In this document: in pieces, positions 15,967 through 21,840 of the stretch
Position numbering within the stretch: position 1 is the stretch's first letter
Layout of the letters: each line of letters starts with the position of its first letter
NCBI RefSeq assembly: GCF_900455735.1
Contig: NZ_UAUI01000021.1
Location: 1-64,000 of the forward strand
Length of the DNA stretch: 64,000 nucleotides
Direction of reading: 5' to 3'
From: Rhodococcus wratislaviensis
GTDB lineage: Bacteria; Actinomycetota; Actinomycetes; Mycobacteriales; Mycobacteriaceae
Notes under the pieces: model-generated
The model's database searches: none
Told to the model about the DNA's origin: nothing
Seen by the model: only the letters and a program-made list of their open reading frames with translations
Made by a program: the position numbers and the translations under genes

Positions 15967-16422
15967 ATGGCAAACACCCTCGAAGCAAGCATCGACATCG
16001 ACGCGACCCCGCAAGACGTGTGGGCCGTCGTGTCGGATCTGAAGCGGATGGGCGAATGGAGCCCCCAGTGCCGCACGATGCGCGTCCTCGGTGGCGTCGT
16101 CGAAGAGGGCACCAAGACCGTCAACATCAACCGCAAGGGCCTCCTCGTGTGGCCGACCACGTCGAAGGTCGTGAAGTTCCAGCCGAACAAGGCCATCGCG
16201 TTCCGGATCCTCGAGAACCGCACCATCTGGTCGTACGAACTCGAGCCGACGGCAGGCGGAACCAAGGTCACCGAGCGCCGCGAAGCCCCGACCGGAACGT
16301 CGAAGGTGTCGCAGTTCCTGGTCAAGACCGTCCTCGGCGGCAACGAGGACTTCGAGGTCGACCTCGTGAACGGCATGAACACCACCCTCGCCCGCATCAA
16401 GTCGGCGGCTGAGCGCACGTAG
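15967..16422 (+). CDS. SRPBCC-family (polyketide cyclase/dehydrase-like) protein
   Basis: A 151-residue START-like fold protein. The family opening (ASIDIDATPQDVWAVVSDLKRMGEWSPQC) is followed by alternating beta segments and a C-terminal helix (VDLVNGMNTTLARIKSAA). Such proteins bind small hydrophobic ligands in a helix-grip cavity and are frequent in mycobacteria and rhodococci; no catalytic residue can be assigned. The ATG at 15967 gives the usual length, with GGAGA a few bases upstream. It is a stand-alone gene followed by the hypothetical gene at 16466. Confidence 0.85.
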   Translation: MANTLEASIDIDATPQDVWAVVSDLKRMGEWSPQCRTMRVLGGVVEEGTKTVNINRKGLLVWPTTSKVVKFQPNKAIAFRILENRTIWSYELEPTAGGTKVTERREAPTGTSKVSQFLVKTVLGGNEDFEVDLVNGMNTTLARIKSAAERT

Positions 16423-16465
16423 TCCGGTTGACCCTCGACCTGGTCGAGGCCCCAGCGTGGTCCGC

Positions 16466-16981
16466 ATGGACACACCGGACGCCGTCATGGCGAGGATCGC
16501 GCAGGGGCAGGAACTGGCAGTAGCGGGAGACCGGGAGGGCGCCCGACGCATCTTCGAGAAGGTGTGGGACGCCCTCGCGGGTCCCGGCGAGGACACAGCG
16601 GACCCGTTGCACGTCGTCACGCTGGCCCACTACATGGCTGACGTCCAGACGGACCCCGCCGAGGAACTGCGCTGGGATCTGCGGGCCCTCGCCGCCGCCG
16701 ACTCGCTGACCGACGAGCGAGCTCAGGAACACCACTCCTCGTTGCAGGTCGCGGGGTTCTACCCGTCGCTGCATCTCAACGTGGCGGCCTCTCATCACGC
16801 ACTCGGCCAGTCGTCCGAGGCACGTCATCATCTCGATCGGGCCGCGCAGAGCTGCGAACATCTCGCCGAGGACGGATACGGACGGATGATCCGCGGGGCG
16901 GTCGAGCGCCTGCGCGCAGAACTCGGCGCCGCGACTGTCGGACCGTGGGGGCAGAGTGAGTGCCGTGCTCAGCATCGGTGA
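16466..16981 (+). CDS. Hypothetical protein, TPR-like helical
   Basis: A 171-residue protein predicted to be almost all helix. Segments such as MARIAQGQELAVAGDREGARRIFEKVWDAL and HLNVAASHHALGQSSEARHHLDRAAQSCEHLAEDG have the Ala/Gly/hydrophobic spacing of tetratricopeptide repeats, but I would not call a specific family. Met at 16466 is preferred to the upstream GTG. Its last 26 bases overlap the start of the MerR / clamp-domain gene, so the two are probably co-translated and may work together. Confidence 0.7.
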   Translation: MDTPDAVMARIAQGQELAVAGDREGARRIFEKVWDALAGPGEDTADPLHVVTLAHYMADVQTDPAEELRWDLRALAAADSLTDERAQEHHSSLQVAGFYPSLHLNVAASHHALGQSSEARHHLDRAAQSCEHLAEDGYGRMIRGAVERLRAELGAATVGPWGQSECRAQHR

Positions 16982-17993
16982 ACTCGCCCGGGCGTCCGGT
17001 CTGTCGGTCAGCGCGCTGCGGTTCTACGACAAGGCCGGGGTGGTCACCCCGCACGCGGTCGACCCGCGCACGGGCTATCGCTGGTACGCCGACCGGCACG
17101 TGGACGCGGCGATCCTCGTCGCCGCGATGCGCCGGGTGGGTATGCCGGTGAAGGAAATGGCGGCCGTACTGAGCGGGACGGACGCCCACGGACTCCTCGA
17201 CCGGCATCTCGGCCGGCTCGAGAAGGGGCTGGACGACGCTCGACGCGAACTGGCGAGGATTCACGGACTGCTCGACGCGCGGACGGCACGGGAGTGCACG
17301 GCCGTCCTCCGCACCACCGACCTCCTCACCGCGTTCGGCTCGGTGCGGTTCGCCGCCGACGCCGACTCGGAGTTCCCGGTGTTGCGCGGCTGCCTCCTGG
17401 AGACGGACCACGGCGTGCTTCGGCTCGTCACCACCGACCGCTACCGGCTGGCGGTCGGCACGGTGACCGTTCTCGAACCACCGGACGAGCCGATCTCCGC
17501 CGTCGTCCCGTGCACGTTCCTGGACGACGCGGCCGGTCTGCTGGGTCGCCACGACACGGTGACCGTCGTCGTCGGCTCCGACAGCATCACCCTCCGCTGC
17601 GGCGCCGAACAGCTCAGCACCCGCCTCGTCGAGGGCGCGTTCCCCGACCATCGCAGCCTGTCGCCGCGCGACCCGGGAACCGAGCACACCTTCTCCTCGG
17701 CGGACCTGCGTGCACTTCTCGCGGACGCAGGCGACCGGGTGGATCTCGGCGTTCTCGAGTCCGGCGAGATCGTCGTCGGCAGCCCGGGGACGGATCAGCC
17801 CGTCCGCTTCCATGTGCAGGTGAGCGCCGGTTTTCTCCTCGAAGCCGTCGACGCGCTGCCGGGTGAGCAGCTGACGTTCCAGGTGGGCGGACCCATCACG
17901 CCGCTCGCCCTCCGGCCACGATCCGTTCACACATCGGACCCCGCGAGTGCGTACTCTCTCCTGATGCCGTTGCAGCCGGTAGCGCTCACGTAA
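16956..17993 (+). CDS. MerR-type DNA-binding domain fused to DNA polymerase III beta-clamp-like domains
   Basis: A 345-residue fusion. Residues 1 to about 75 are a MerR winged helix ([26 protein letters not shown], then GYRWY), and about 80-110 form the MerR dimerisation helix. From about residue 118 the sequence follows domains 2 and 3 of the DnaN sliding clamp: [20 protein letters not shown] with TDRYRLAVG, then [12 protein letters not shown], then [18 protein letters not shown], and finally [12 protein letters not shown], matching the clamp's C-terminal MPMRL. Clamp domain 1 is absent, its place taken by the MerR part. It has a GTG start and overlaps the preceding gene. MerR proteins dimerise, so a clamp-like assembly on specific DNA is conceivable, but function is unknown to me. 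Confidence 0.85.
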
Positions 17994-18055
17994 TCTGTGA
18001 GTGCGGCGCGATGGCGCGCAGGCAGCACGTCCGTCCGACACAGTTAGAGGAGCCC

Positions 18056-18769
18056 GTGGCACGCAAGCCCACACCCCCCGGAACCCCGCAATCCACGAGC
18101 GTCGGCCACATCGTCGACCTCGTCCGCGGAGCAGTTCCGCCCCTGCATCCGGCCGGGCTGCCCTTCGTCCTCGCACCACTCGGTGTGGCCGTCCTCGGCC
18201 GCAAGCGCAAGTGGGTCCGGCGTGGAGCGCTGACCTCCGCCGCGGCCTGCGCCGCGTTCTTCCGGCATCCGCACCGCGTTCCGCCGAACCGTGTCGGCGT
18301 CGTCGTCGCACCGGCCGACGGCGAGGTCGCACTCGTCGACTCCGCGGTCCCGCCGTCCGAACTCGACATGGGAACCGAGCCGCTCCCCCGGGTCAGCATC
18401 TTCCTGTCCGTGCTCGACGTGCACGTCCAGCGCAGTCCTGTCGGTGGTGAGGTCACGAAGGTCGTCCACCGGCCGGGCCAGTTCCTCTCCGCCGATCTCG
18501 CCGACGCCAGCGAGGTCAACGAACGCAACAGCATGCTGCTGCACACCCAGGGAGGCCACGACGTCGCCGTCGTGCAGATCGCCGGTCTGCTCGCCCGCCG
18601 GATCGTCTGCGACGCCAAGGTCGGCGACACCCTCCCGATCGGTGACACGTACGGCCTGATCCGGTTCGGCTCCCGCGTCGACACGTACTTCCCGGCGGGC
18701 ACCACGTTGCTCGCCGAGCGTGGCCAGCGGACGATCGGCGCCGAGACCGTCATCGCTCAACTGCCGTGA
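18056..18769 (+). CDS. psd: Phosphatidylserine decarboxylase
   Basis: A 237-residue proenzyme of the short archaeal/actinobacterial class that makes phosphatidylethanolamine. The self-cleavage site is the Gly205-Ser206 pair in [12 protein letters not shown], where Ser becomes the pyruvoyl group. Upstream family blocks are [25 protein letters not shown] and [23 protein letters not shown] choose the GTG at 18056 because of AGAGGAG just upstream; an ATG at 18011 is also possible. Translation is coupled to pssA by a 4-bp overlap (GTGA). Confidence 0.93.
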
Positions 18770-19629
18770 TCGCCAACGCCAAGCAGCAGAGGCGGGGACG
18801 ACCCCAGCAGGCGGTTCGGCTCCTGCCGAGCGTGGTCACGATCCTCGCCCTGTGCGCGGGGCTGTCCGCCGTCAAGTTCGCGCTCGACGGCGACCTGGGG
18901 ACGGCGCTGGCGATGATCGGCGCCGCCGCGGTGCTCGACTCGCTCGACGGCCGCATCGCGCGCCTCCTCGACGCCACCAGCAAGATGGGCGCGGAACTGG
19001 ACTCGCTCGCCGATTCCATCTCGTTCGGTGTCGCACCGGCCCTCGTCCTCTACGTCACACTGCTGGACGGGCAGAGTTTCGGCTGGATCATCGCGCTGAT
19101 CTATGCGGTGAGCATCGTGCTGCGGCTGGCACGGTTCAACACGCTCCTCGACGAGGACGACGCGCCGGGCTACACCAACGAGTACTTCACCGGGGTGCCT
19201 GCGCCGGCGGGTGCGCTGATCGCACTGACCCCGCTGGCCGCCGCCGCGCAGTGGGGTGACGGCTGGTGGTCGTCGTATCCGGTCGTCGTGGCGTGGACCG
19301 TGATCTCCGCGGCGCTGATCGTCAGCCGGATTCCCACACTGGCGCTGAAGACGGTGTCCGTGCCCCCGCGGATGGCGGCCGGTCTACTCGTCCTCGTGGC
19401 GCTCGCGGCGGCGGCCCTGGTCACCTACCCGTACATCCTGCTGATCGCGCTCGTGGCCGTGTACCTCGTGCACATTCCGTTCGCGGTCCATTCCAAGCGG
19501 TGGGTGGCCGCACGCCCCGAGACGTGGGACATCAAGCCGTCCGAGCGGCGGGCCATCCGGCGTCAGCCCGACGCCCGCGGCAGGCGATCCGCCGCACGGC
19601 TCGGACTGCGTCGTCCCCGGGCCCGATAG
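18766..19629 (+). CDS. pssA: CDP-diacylglycerol-serine O-phosphatidyltransferase
   Basis: A 287-residue integral membrane enzyme making phosphatidylserine, the substrate of Psd. The CDP-alcohol phosphotransferase motif is complete: [20 protein letters not shown] followed by [11 protein letters not shown], i.e. DG-x2-AR-x8-G-x3-D-x3-D. Several hydrophobic segments follow, then a basic cytoplasmic tail ([20 protein letters not shown]). GTG start overlapping the psd stop. In mycobacteria the same trio psd, pssA and a CDC48-like ATPase is found. Confidence 0.94.
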
Positions 19630-19656
19630 TTCGCTCCCGCACGTAGGCTCGACGGC

Positions 19657-21840
19657 GTGACCTCACCGGAACTCGCGCTCACAGTCCGACTGAACACCTC
19701 GGCCGCCGACGCCCGGCGCGGCGTGGTCCGGCTGCATCCGGAAGCCCTGGCCGCGCTCGGCGTCCGCGAGTGGGACGCGATCGCCCTCGTCGGCGCGCGC
19801 CGCACCGCCGCGGTGGCGGGTCGCGCGCCGACCGGAACCCCCACCGGGACTGCACTCCTCGACGACGTGACCCTGTCCAACGCCGGGTTGTCCGAGAACA
19901 GCACGGTCGTCGTGACACCGGTGACGGTGTACGGCGGGAAGACGGTGACGGTCAGCGGCTCGAATCTGGCCGTCACCTCCGTCTCCGACGTCACCCTGCG
20001 TCACGCCCTGCTCGGCAAGGTCCTCACGGTCGGCGACACGGTGTCGCTGCTCCCCCGCGATCTGGGCCCCGGAACCAGCACCGCCCCCGCGACACAGGCA
20101 CTGTCCCGGACGTTCGGTGTCGCCTGGACGTCCGAGTTGCTCACCGTCACCGGGGTCGACCCGGCCGGTGGTCCGGTGAGCGTGCAGCCCAACACCGCGG
20201 TCGGGTGGGGTGAGGGTGTGCGCGCGACGGTGTCCGCGGCTCCGCCGCGGTTGCCCGCGCCGCCGGTACCGCCCGCCGAGGAAGTTCCCCCGGTCCCCGT
20301 CGAGGACCTGGTCGGTGCCCACACCCAGGCAGCCAAACTCACCGAGTGGCTCGGACTGGCACTCGACGAACCCGAACTGCTCCGCAAACTGGGGGCCTCA
20401 CCCCATCTGGGCGTCCTGGTGACCGGGCCCGCCGGTGTCGGGAAGGCGACGCTGGCCCGTTCGGTGCTCGCCTCCCGGCGGGTGGTCGAACTCGACGGGC
20501 CGAGTGCAGGCGCGCTGGAAGCCGACTCGCGGCTGCAGCGTGTCACCGCGGCGGTCGACGCGACCCGCAGCGGCGGCGTCCTGCTGATCACCGACATCGA
20601 CGCCCTGCTGCCTGCCACCCCGGAGCCGGTGTCGGCGCTGATCGTCGAACAGCTCCGCCGCGCAGTCGACACCGTCGGCGTCGCGTTCGTGGCGACGTCG
20701 GCGCACCCGGAGTCGGTCGACGCACGGTTGCGCGGGCAGGACCTGTGCGACCGCGAACTCACCCTGACCCTGCCCGACGGCTCCACCCGCCGGGCGCTGC
20801 TGGAACTGCTTCTGCGGAAAGTCCCCACCGACGGGATCGCCCTCGACGCGATCGCGGCCCGCACACCGGGGTTCGTCGTCGCCGACCTCGCCGCGCTGTG
20901 CCGGGAAGCGGCCCTGCGTGCCGCCTCGCGCGCGACCAGGAAACCCGTCGACCCGGCGCTCACACAGGACGACCTGCTCGGCGCGCTCGACGTCATCCGC
21001 CCCCTGTCGCGGTCGGGCAGCGAGGAACTCGCGATCGGCAGCGTCACCCTCGACGACGTCGGGGACATGGTGGAGACCAAGCAGGCGCTGACCGAGGCGG
21101 TCCTGTGGCCGTTGCAGCATCCGGATTCGTTCGCCCGGCTGGGCGTCGATCCGCCGCGCGGAGTGCTGCTCTACGGTCCCCCCGGTTGCGGCAAGACCTA
21201 TCTCGTTCGGGCGCTGGCAAGTTCGGGGCATCTGAGTGTGCACGCCGTCAAGGGCGCCGAACTGATGGACAAGTGGGTGGGCGCGTCCGAGAAGGCGGTC
21301 CGCGAACTGTTCCAGCGGGCACGGGATTCGGCCCCGTCGCTGATCTTCCTCGACGAGGTGGACGCCCTCGCTCCGCGGCGCGGTCAGAGCTCCGACTCCG
21401 GGGTATCCGATCGGGTGGTGGCCTCGCTGCTCACCGAACTCGACGGCGTCGAACCGCTGCGTGACGTGGTCGTCGTCGGCGCCACCAACCGGCCCGACCT
21501 CATCGACCCGGCGTTGCTGCGCCCCGGCCGCCTGGAGCGGCTGGTATTCGTGCCGCCACCGGACGGTGATGCCCGACGCGCGATCCTGCGAACGTCCGGG
21601 AAATCGGTGCCCCTCGCCGACGACGTCGACCTCGACGCCCTGGCCGACGACCTCGACGGCTACTCGGCCGCCGACTGTTCGGCGCTGCTGAGGGAAGCCG
21701 CGCTGGCCGCCATGCGCCGGAACATCGACGCCGCCGACGTCACCGCGGCCGACGTCGCCGAGGCACGCGAAAAGGTGCGCCCCTCACTCGATCCCGAGCA
21801 AGTGGCGCACCTGAAGTCCTATGCGCTGTCGCGCCCGTGA
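19657..21840 (+). CDS. CDC48/p97-type AAA ATPase with two AAA domains
   Basis: A 727-residue protein. Residues 1 to about 190 resemble the CDC48 N-domain (double-psi barrel, LHPEALAALGVREWDAIALVG). The first AAA domain has Walker A GPAGVGKAT with Lys263 and a Walker B LLITDIDAL in which Asp replaces the catalytic Glu. The second is canonical: GPPGCGKT with Lys513, LIFLDEVDALAPRR, and the arginine-finger region RPGRLERLVF. So D1 may bind but poorly hydrolyse ATP, with D2 as motor. The M. tuberculosis counterpart (Rv0435c) has the same neighbours pssA and psd. Client proteins are not evident. The stop codon lies inside the palindrome at 21834-21879. Confidence 0.9.
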   Translation: MTSPELALTVRLNTSAADARRGVVRLHPEALAALGVREWDAIALVGARRTAAVAGRAPTGTPTGTALLDDVTLSNAGLSENSTVVVTPVTVYGGKTVTVSGSNLAVTSVSDVTLRHALLGKVLTVGDTVSLLPRDLGPGTSTAPATQALSRTFGVAWTSELLTVTGVDPAGGPVSVQPNTAVGWGEGVRATVSAAPPRLPAPPVPPAEEVPPVPVEDLVGAHTQAAKLTEWLGLALDEPELLRKLGASPHLGVLVTGPAGVGKATLARSVLASRRVVELDGPSAGALEADSRLQRVTAAVDATRSGGVLLITDIDALLPATPEPVSALIVEQLRRAVDTVGVAFVATSAHPESVDARLRGQDLCDRELTLTLPDGSTRRALLELLLRKVPTDGIALDAIAARTPGFVVADLAALCREAALRAASRATRKPVDPALTQDDLLGALDVIRPLSRSGSEELAIGSVTLDDVGDMVETKQALTEAVLWPLQHPDSFARLGVDPPRGVLLYGPPGCGKTYLVRALASSGHLSVHAVKGAELMDKWVGASEKAVRELFQRARDSAPSLIFLDEVDALAPRRGQSSDSGVSDRVVASLLTELDGVEPLRDVVVVGATNRPDLIDPALLRPGRLERLVFVPPPDGDARRAILRTSGKSVPLADDVDLDALADDLDGYSAADCSALLREAALAAMRRNIDAADVTAADVAEAREKVRPSLDPEQVAHLKSYALSRP

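Follow-up and report, generated by a model that had tools for sequence, protein, structure and literature searches.

A MerR-type regulator of Rhodococcus wratislaviensis containing sliding-clamp domains 2 and 3, its predicted operator and its possible role as a sensor of clamp ligands

TipAL and BmrR are MerR activators of the drug-sensing kind, each with a large effector domain, and Hda and YabA are regulators that bind the sliding clamp, DnaN. Antibiotics binding DnaN include griselimycin from Streptomyces and mycoplanecin from Actinoplanes, with the corresponding clusters holding the extra DnaN copies GriR and MypR as DnaN-encoding self-resistance genes, according to one article (PMC10817943). 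The locus described here is found in the window, by which we mean the whole 64,000-nucleotide stretch of Rhodococcus wratislaviensis DNA that was analysed, and encodes a protein with traits of each of these systems. It resembles TipAL and BmrR in its MerR helix-turn-helix, in a promoter whose 19-bp spacer holds a palindrome, and in that it is predicted to regulate itself and, in some lineages, to have exporters as targets, but its effector part is a fragment of a sliding clamp and it has a TPR partner gene. It holds domains 2 and 3 of DnaN with the core of the partner pocket; unlike DnaN it lacks domain 1, has lost conserved basic residues and, here, the Ile272/Leu273 segment, and is fused to a MerR part. 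By hypothesis it would share with GriR and MypR the tie of a clamp homologue to clamp-targeting antibiotics, in this case as a regulator without domain 1 and not as a DnaN-encoding resistance gene. As for Hda and YabA, clamp binding would be coupled to control, with the difference that they bind the clamp whereas this regulator itself carries a clamp-like pocket. Among the titles and abstract openings listed in searches of the open-access PMC literature, none described this fusion, the operator or the target genes; the protein belongs with the MerR regulators, and what is new is the type of its effector domain. The features of the locus are as follows.

15967-16422: SRPBCC protein resembling polyketide cyclases, lying upstream of the operator
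16428..16458, + strand: MerR-type promoter/operator preceding the TPR gene, with the exact 22-base site at 16428-16449
16428-16433, + strand: -35 element TTGACC of this promoter
16433-16449, + strand: palindrome CCTCGACCTGGTCGAGG, inside the 19-bp spacer
16453-16458, + strand: -10 element CAGCGT of this promoter
16466..16981, + strand: TPR-like partner protein, 171 aa, with homologues beside fusions and a weak Pfam TPR_2 match
16956..17993, + strand: MerR-clamp fusion regulator, 345 aa, GTG start, intact ORF, overlapping the TPR gene by 26 nt
16956..17174, + strand: MerR winged helix-turn-helix, residues 1-73 (Pfam MerR_1, 1.7e-11, residues 6-73)
17187..17279, + strand: putative MerR dimerisation helix, residues 78-108, by position, with conserved L81, H84 and L88
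17295..17678, + strand: sliding-clamp domain 2, residues 114-241, by profile-profile comparison with DnaN domain 2
17679..17978, + strand: sliding-clamp domain 3, residues 242-341, with C-terminal LMPLQ, by profile-profile comparison with DnaN domain 3
18011..21840, + strand: psd, pssA and CDC48-like double AAA ATPase genes, starting 17 bp downstream of the fusion (Pfam/NCBIfam)

The N-terminal part of the fusion protein scored 44.5 bits against Pfam MerR_1, above the cut-off of 21.6, and in a search of PDB sequences its helix-turn-helix matched both TipAL and BmrR (the latter listed as multidrug-efflux transporter 1 regulator, 1.1e-9), with the best clamp chain at 3.1e-13. Of the clamp part, Pfam DNA_pol3_beta_2 covered residues 122-231 (2.6e-17) and NCBIfam TIGR00663 (DnaN) residues 117-255 (2.8e-21), the latter with 75.9 bits and thus below its model cut-off of 137.65, and domain 3 was weak in single-sequence searches. 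The assignment of domain 3 was settled with a profile of the family. Using a family alignment of 56 members, with 50 rows used for the clamp part, against a profile of 18 DnaN including that of E. coli, residues 114-341 corresponded to E. coli DnaN 126-366 (probability 100, E 2.5e-40), residues 116-238 to domain 2 (99.9%, E 1.9e-33) and residues 240-345 to domain 3 alone (98.9%, E 3.8e-17), while the MerR part gave no clamp match in this comparison with DnaN. The sequence-only reading had proposed exactly such a fusion of a MerR DNA-binding part to clamp domains 2 and 3, to be abandoned if the C-terminal 230 residues had no profile match to the clamp; that test was run, and the match at E 2.5e-40 together with the MerR_1 hit bears the proposal out. 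Of the three domains of a clamp subunit only two are present, the match starting at E. coli DnaN 126, as expected from the proposed loss of domain 1, and the clamp landmarks pointed out at that time (TDRYRLA, FPDxR and Met-Pro) were conserved across the family. The conserved linker segment between the two parts is a putative dimerisation helix, through which the protein would dimerise as a MerR regulator.

Relatives were sought within the phylum, in a scan of contigs of close relatives, and in plasmid and phage collections. The closest named contigs were those of R. opacus (89% identity), R. koreensis (87%) and R. jostii (82%). The fusion was present in 82 of 298 genomes sampled across the order and, in the phylum sample, also in another order of the same class, and it is thus found in Rhodococcus and several other families of the class, a recurrence showing that it is no chance or frame artefact. 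Fusion-positive genomes were here chosen by hand as those whose match began within the MerR part and extended at least to residue 172, with the addition of one (G268) whose match stops early near a contig end; two with MerR-only matches (G271 and G176) were scored as fusion-negative, a class that may include misses since the searches across order and phylum scored no more than seven candidates per genome. The branch of the window protein was separate in the protein tree from a second branch, whose members are about 25-35% identical to it. Within the genus, 22 of 28 genomes matched at 1e-12 or better and the gene was not detected in six; two of the 22 had it broken into two pieces, and the match in another was limited to 77 residues. 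The fusion gene of R. koreensis and that of one further genome of the genus are split between two frames. Absence and broken copies within the genus together show that the gene is dispensable. A frame break near the start was also seen in the fusion gene of one genome of another order.

Plasmid relatives were found in 8 of 72,556 records (Streptomyces, Kitasatospora and Embleya). In the three plasmid regions opened, the fusion was labelled as a MerR family transcriptional regulator and had an operator at two, four and three mismatches, respectively, and in two of these regions a TPR homologue was the next gene. On a Streptomyces atratus plasmid, a gene with the annotation aminoglycoside phosphotransferase follows the fusion at a distance of about 600 bp. 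An origin in defence systems or phages was discarded as an idea, with PADLOC giving just one short match in the helix-turn-helix part and the phage collection having no record that covered 80% of the fusion query.

The residues of the clamp pocket that takes up partner peptides, together with the Ile272/Leu273 ring contact, are listed in one review (PMC11139829). As judged from where that list falls, the pocket sits between domains 2 and 3, and keeping precisely these two domains would serve the reading of ligands. In the window protein, subsite I of the pocket includes L143, T160, Y163, R164, L165 and P230, all in clamp domain 2. Over the 56 family rows, and using clamp numbering, the core of this subsite was retained as L155 in 52, T172 in 55, Tyr at 175 in 48 and R176 in 55, with L177 in 47, P242 in 55, and M362 and P363 in all 56. 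The 18 pocket positions of the published list had a mean retention of 0.55, compared with 0.27 for random clamp positions (0 of 10,000 draws). Set against other DnaN-conserved positions in 35 representatives, pocket retention was 0.62 versus 0.42 (p 0.04), a modest contrast implying that part of it may be conservation of the fold. We therefore regard the support from pocket retention as genuine but moderate. An earlier suggestion that the clamp fold serves as a sensor or partner platform is probably correct.

The pocket was also remodelled: Arg at 152 was found in none of the 56 rows, Arg replaced Gly/Ser at 174 in 51, and N320 and R365 were kept in 19 and 21 rows, respectively. The family-specific Arg at 174, the loss of R152 and the variability of N320 would suit a generic sensor of small molecules or proteins, in which the clamp fold is a co-opted scaffold and the pocket takes an unrelated ligand, or in which the TPR protein is the partner of the pocket in a feedback loop. 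We consider such a sensor unlikely, with subsite I and the C-terminal Met-Pro being near-invariant even though many members are just 25-35% identical to the window protein; the predicted targets, given below, bear on it from both sides.

An open clamp or a decoy, both raised in the sequence-only reading, would engage DNA or replication proteins in the manner of a clamp, tethered by the MerR part, and clamp homology as such agrees with this. The Ile272/Leu273 segment of the ring interface is, however, deleted in the window protein, and the corresponding segment had 8-12 residues in 40 of the 56 fusion rows compared with 16-17 in 18 of 18 DnaN, a shortening that is not universal since 15 rows carry 17-24 residues, with one row having no letters there. 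At positions 205, 269 and 282, which we take to be basic residues lining the inner channel of the clamp, Arg was found in 1, 4 and 6 of the 56 fusion rows as opposed to 16, 18 and 15 of the 18 DnaN, and Lys at 198 was found in a single fusion row, such that the family has not kept the conserved basic residues of DnaN. Because the ring-closing segment is deleted or altered and these basic residues are mostly lost, the idea of an open clamp on DNA was not supported. The MerR-type promoter described below, which is conserved and tracks the presence of the fusion, also speaks against it, and a decoy leaves the operator and its targets unexplained; we thus find either role very improbable.

The TPR gene and this promoter, both absent from the sequence-only reading, are the strongest functional evidence at the locus. 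The promoter consists of TTGACC, 19 bp holding CCTCGACC.GGTCGAGG, and then NANNNT, and the same design recurs before fusion genes of other actinobacterial genera, with palindromes such as CTTCGA....TCGAAG or CCTCGACC.GGTCGAGG and the start codon shortly after the hexamer. In 56 of 56 family sites NANNNT followed exactly 19 nt after TTGACC, and all 56 predicted sites thus place the palindrome inside a promoter with a spacer of the 19-20 bp typical for MerR; the 19-bp spacing is given as a hallmark of MerR promoters in one article (PMC1526738). Of 55 relatives, 41 had an operator with at most four mismatches in the 150 bp that precede the start of the fusion, compared with 0.18% of single-base shuffles, although in one locus (L115) the best match was out of register with the visible promoter. 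Thirteen of the other 14 relatives are rows of the genus with the TPR gene first, the remaining one being L113. In such TPR-first loci the element sits ahead of the TPR gene instead: among further Rhodococcus loci searched, a site with at most two mismatches preceded the TPR gene in 14 of 15, broken copies included. Recognition of the TTGACC-palindrome promoter by the fusion protein, and autoregulation of the fusion as a MerR regulator, are well-supported predictions from these patterns.

In the 7.78 Mb genome of the window the exact 22-base pattern had one site, that at 16428, and the site of the window operon was likewise the sole match to the 31-base promoter pattern at no more than one mismatch. 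None of 19 other loci drawn from loose matches (100 of the 140 places at three mismatches or fewer) had a -10 hexamer, and at exporters or dnaN of this genome no operator was seen.

Across the 298 genomes, the exact 22-base element occurred at 50 sites. These were spread over 42 genomes, and all but two of the 42 carry the fusion (40 of 42, p 3e-24); a reversed control pattern occurred in none. Thirty of these sites lay before the fusion or its operon and six before unlinked TPR genes, with two before an exporter gene of the major facilitator type here called MFS-A, six before another, MFS-B, and four upstream of dnaN; for the last two sites, in genomes without a detected fusion, no query matched downstream. 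Unlinked TPR genes had an operator at three mismatches or fewer in 21 of 46 cases in fusion-positive genomes versus 0 of 40 in fusion-negative genomes (p 2e-7), as counted over 86 TPR loci that leave out hits beside the fusion and some weak hits (e.g. G031, G050 and G238). Outside one genus, designated g23, the 31-base promoter pattern matched in 44 of 48 chosen fusion-positive genomes at 51 sites, of which 43 lay before the fusion or its operon, six before TPR genes, one before an MFS gene and one before a different MerR gene. That 49 of these 51 sites in the 48 chosen genomes serve almost solely the fusion and the TPR gene is what a generic sensor would lead one to expect.

The TPR gene of the window is probably leaderless, its ATG lying 7 nt after the -10 element, as deduced from promoter spacing, and its TPR_2 match (0.0011) was below the cut-off. 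A TPR homologue adjoined the fusion in 31 of 56 rows; in the 14 rows with the TPR gene upstream, all were from the genus of the window, and the 17 with it downstream came from this genus and from other families. The TPR family also matched in 90 of 298 genomes and was found away from the fusion, and adjacency of TPR genes was for this reason rejected as evidence by itself and the operator test relied upon instead. By eye, no clamp-binding motif was seen in the TPR protein, where a PSLHLNL stretch resembles an ordinary TPR helix. The psd, pssA and AAA genes are possibly co-transcribed with the fusion, and together with the SRPBCC gene they were neighbours only in Rhodococcus loci among those compared. 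As neighbours varied between the other lineages looked up, the neighbourhood alone names no targets, and it was rejected as a guide to them. The SRPBCC protein had a weak match, far below the cut-off, to the model of the Rv0910 toxin family. One relative without a detected fusion had a TPR gene lacking an operator, before three genes sized like psd, pssA and the AAA gene.

Genus g23 belongs to a family (f15) other than that of the window and is probably Micromonospora. Here, an operator lay just before the start of 8 of 8 MFS-A orthologues versus 0 of 21 paralogues fetched (27 were listed), with 4 of 12 genomes searched holding MFS-A paralogues only. Before MFS-B the operator occurred at six exact sites, one ORF being assigned by family search and five by 69-82% similarity. 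An MFS gene 37% identical to MFS-B was likewise preceded by an operator in a single genome, which belongs to a different family. Exporters bearing the operator were thus seen in two lineages only; in three genomes fetched from a third family, an MFS gene beside the fusion had no operator of its own.

Furthermore, in 11 of 12 g23 genomes an operator facing dnaN was found about 690 bp upstream of that gene, eight of these sites having at most three mismatches and three having four. The four exact sites at dnaN were found through the operator itself and are for that reason no independent test. At three mismatches or fewer, dnaN had no operator in any of the 17 other fusion-positive genomes, one of which (G106) had a four-mismatch hit elsewhere without a -10 element, nor in any of 29 fusion-negative dnaN loci read; in all, 29 of 30 fusion-positive and 29 of 30 fusion-negative loci were read, the unoriented G254 and the main dnaN of G157 being left unscored. 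G157, a genome without a detected fusion, has a second DnaN that is 38% identical to the DnaN query. The dnaN site lies inside the dnaA-dnaN intergenic region, a putative origin, near DnaA-box-like repeats. A hidden gene between operator and dnaN was rejected, as open stretches differed in frame and length in an alignment of 16 genomes. Since the stretch up to dnaN contains such repeats and shows no reading frame shared by these genomes, the target of the site could also be the origin, whose firing it might influence.

These sites, together with the retained pocket core, would fit a homeostat of clamp or replication state, in which the clamp-like domain either reads free proteins with clamp-binding motifs (polymerases or repair factors) or contends with DnaN in binding such proteins, and so tunes transcription of dnaN or the origin region and of the TPR gene. 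Yet dnaN is a target in just one genus, the exporters do not fit, and the gene is undetected in 6 and in pieces in 3 of the 28 genomes of the window's genus; a gene missing or broken in members of the genus is not a core replication control, and we hold the homeostat to be doubtful. The same exporters and dnaN sites, pointing to clamp-directed ligands in one genus, also count against the generic sensor.

Taken together with the clamp-derived pocket, exporters and dnaN among the g23 targets point to clamp-binding ligands. The explanation we put first, which in our judgement stands about evenly between right and wrong, is that of a MerR activator controlling its own gene; its effector domain would mimic the pocket of the clamp and sense molecules that bind there, possibly antibiotics of the griselimycin type. 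Dimerisation, promoter binding, activation by a ligand, the identity of that ligand and the part played by the TPR protein are inferences, and the course of events would be as follows. A dimer of the fusion protein would sit through its MerR parts on the palindrome inside the 19-bp-spaced promoter, and its clamp-like domain would take up a ligand that fits the pocket; the likeliest candidate is a natural product directed at the clamp, for instance a peptide of the griselimycin type. The ligand-bound protein would then distort the promoter, such that the TPR gene and the regulator itself are switched on. In genus g23 it would raise exporters as well as dnaN, whose product is what such ligands truly target. 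Counting against this activator of clamp-ligand response is that the TPR-fusion operon appears to be its sole predicted target in the window genome. Also against it, operators are limited to one genus at dnaN, where the site is remote from the gene and falls within a putative origin, and to two lineages at exporters, and the pocket is remodelled at positions 152, 174, 320 and 365.

The protein described here unites the pocket of a replication clamp with a MerR switch for which an operator and few targets are predicted, and with such an operator and so small a target set the question of what is sensed reduces to a single reporter experiment. If clamp ligands prove to be the inducers, nature would have supplied in the fusion a biosensor for anti-tuberculosis leads directed at the clamp, and an example of a drug being sensed by a copy of its own target. 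More tentatively, and with somewhat less confidence than the activator itself, we propose that the family constitutes an antibiotic sensor by target mimicry, in which those two thirds of an essential replication protein that bind the drug have been reused as the ligand domain of a switch, so that an antibiotic blocking the clamp would raise the regulator and its TPR partner, together with exporters and the true clamp in some of the lineages.
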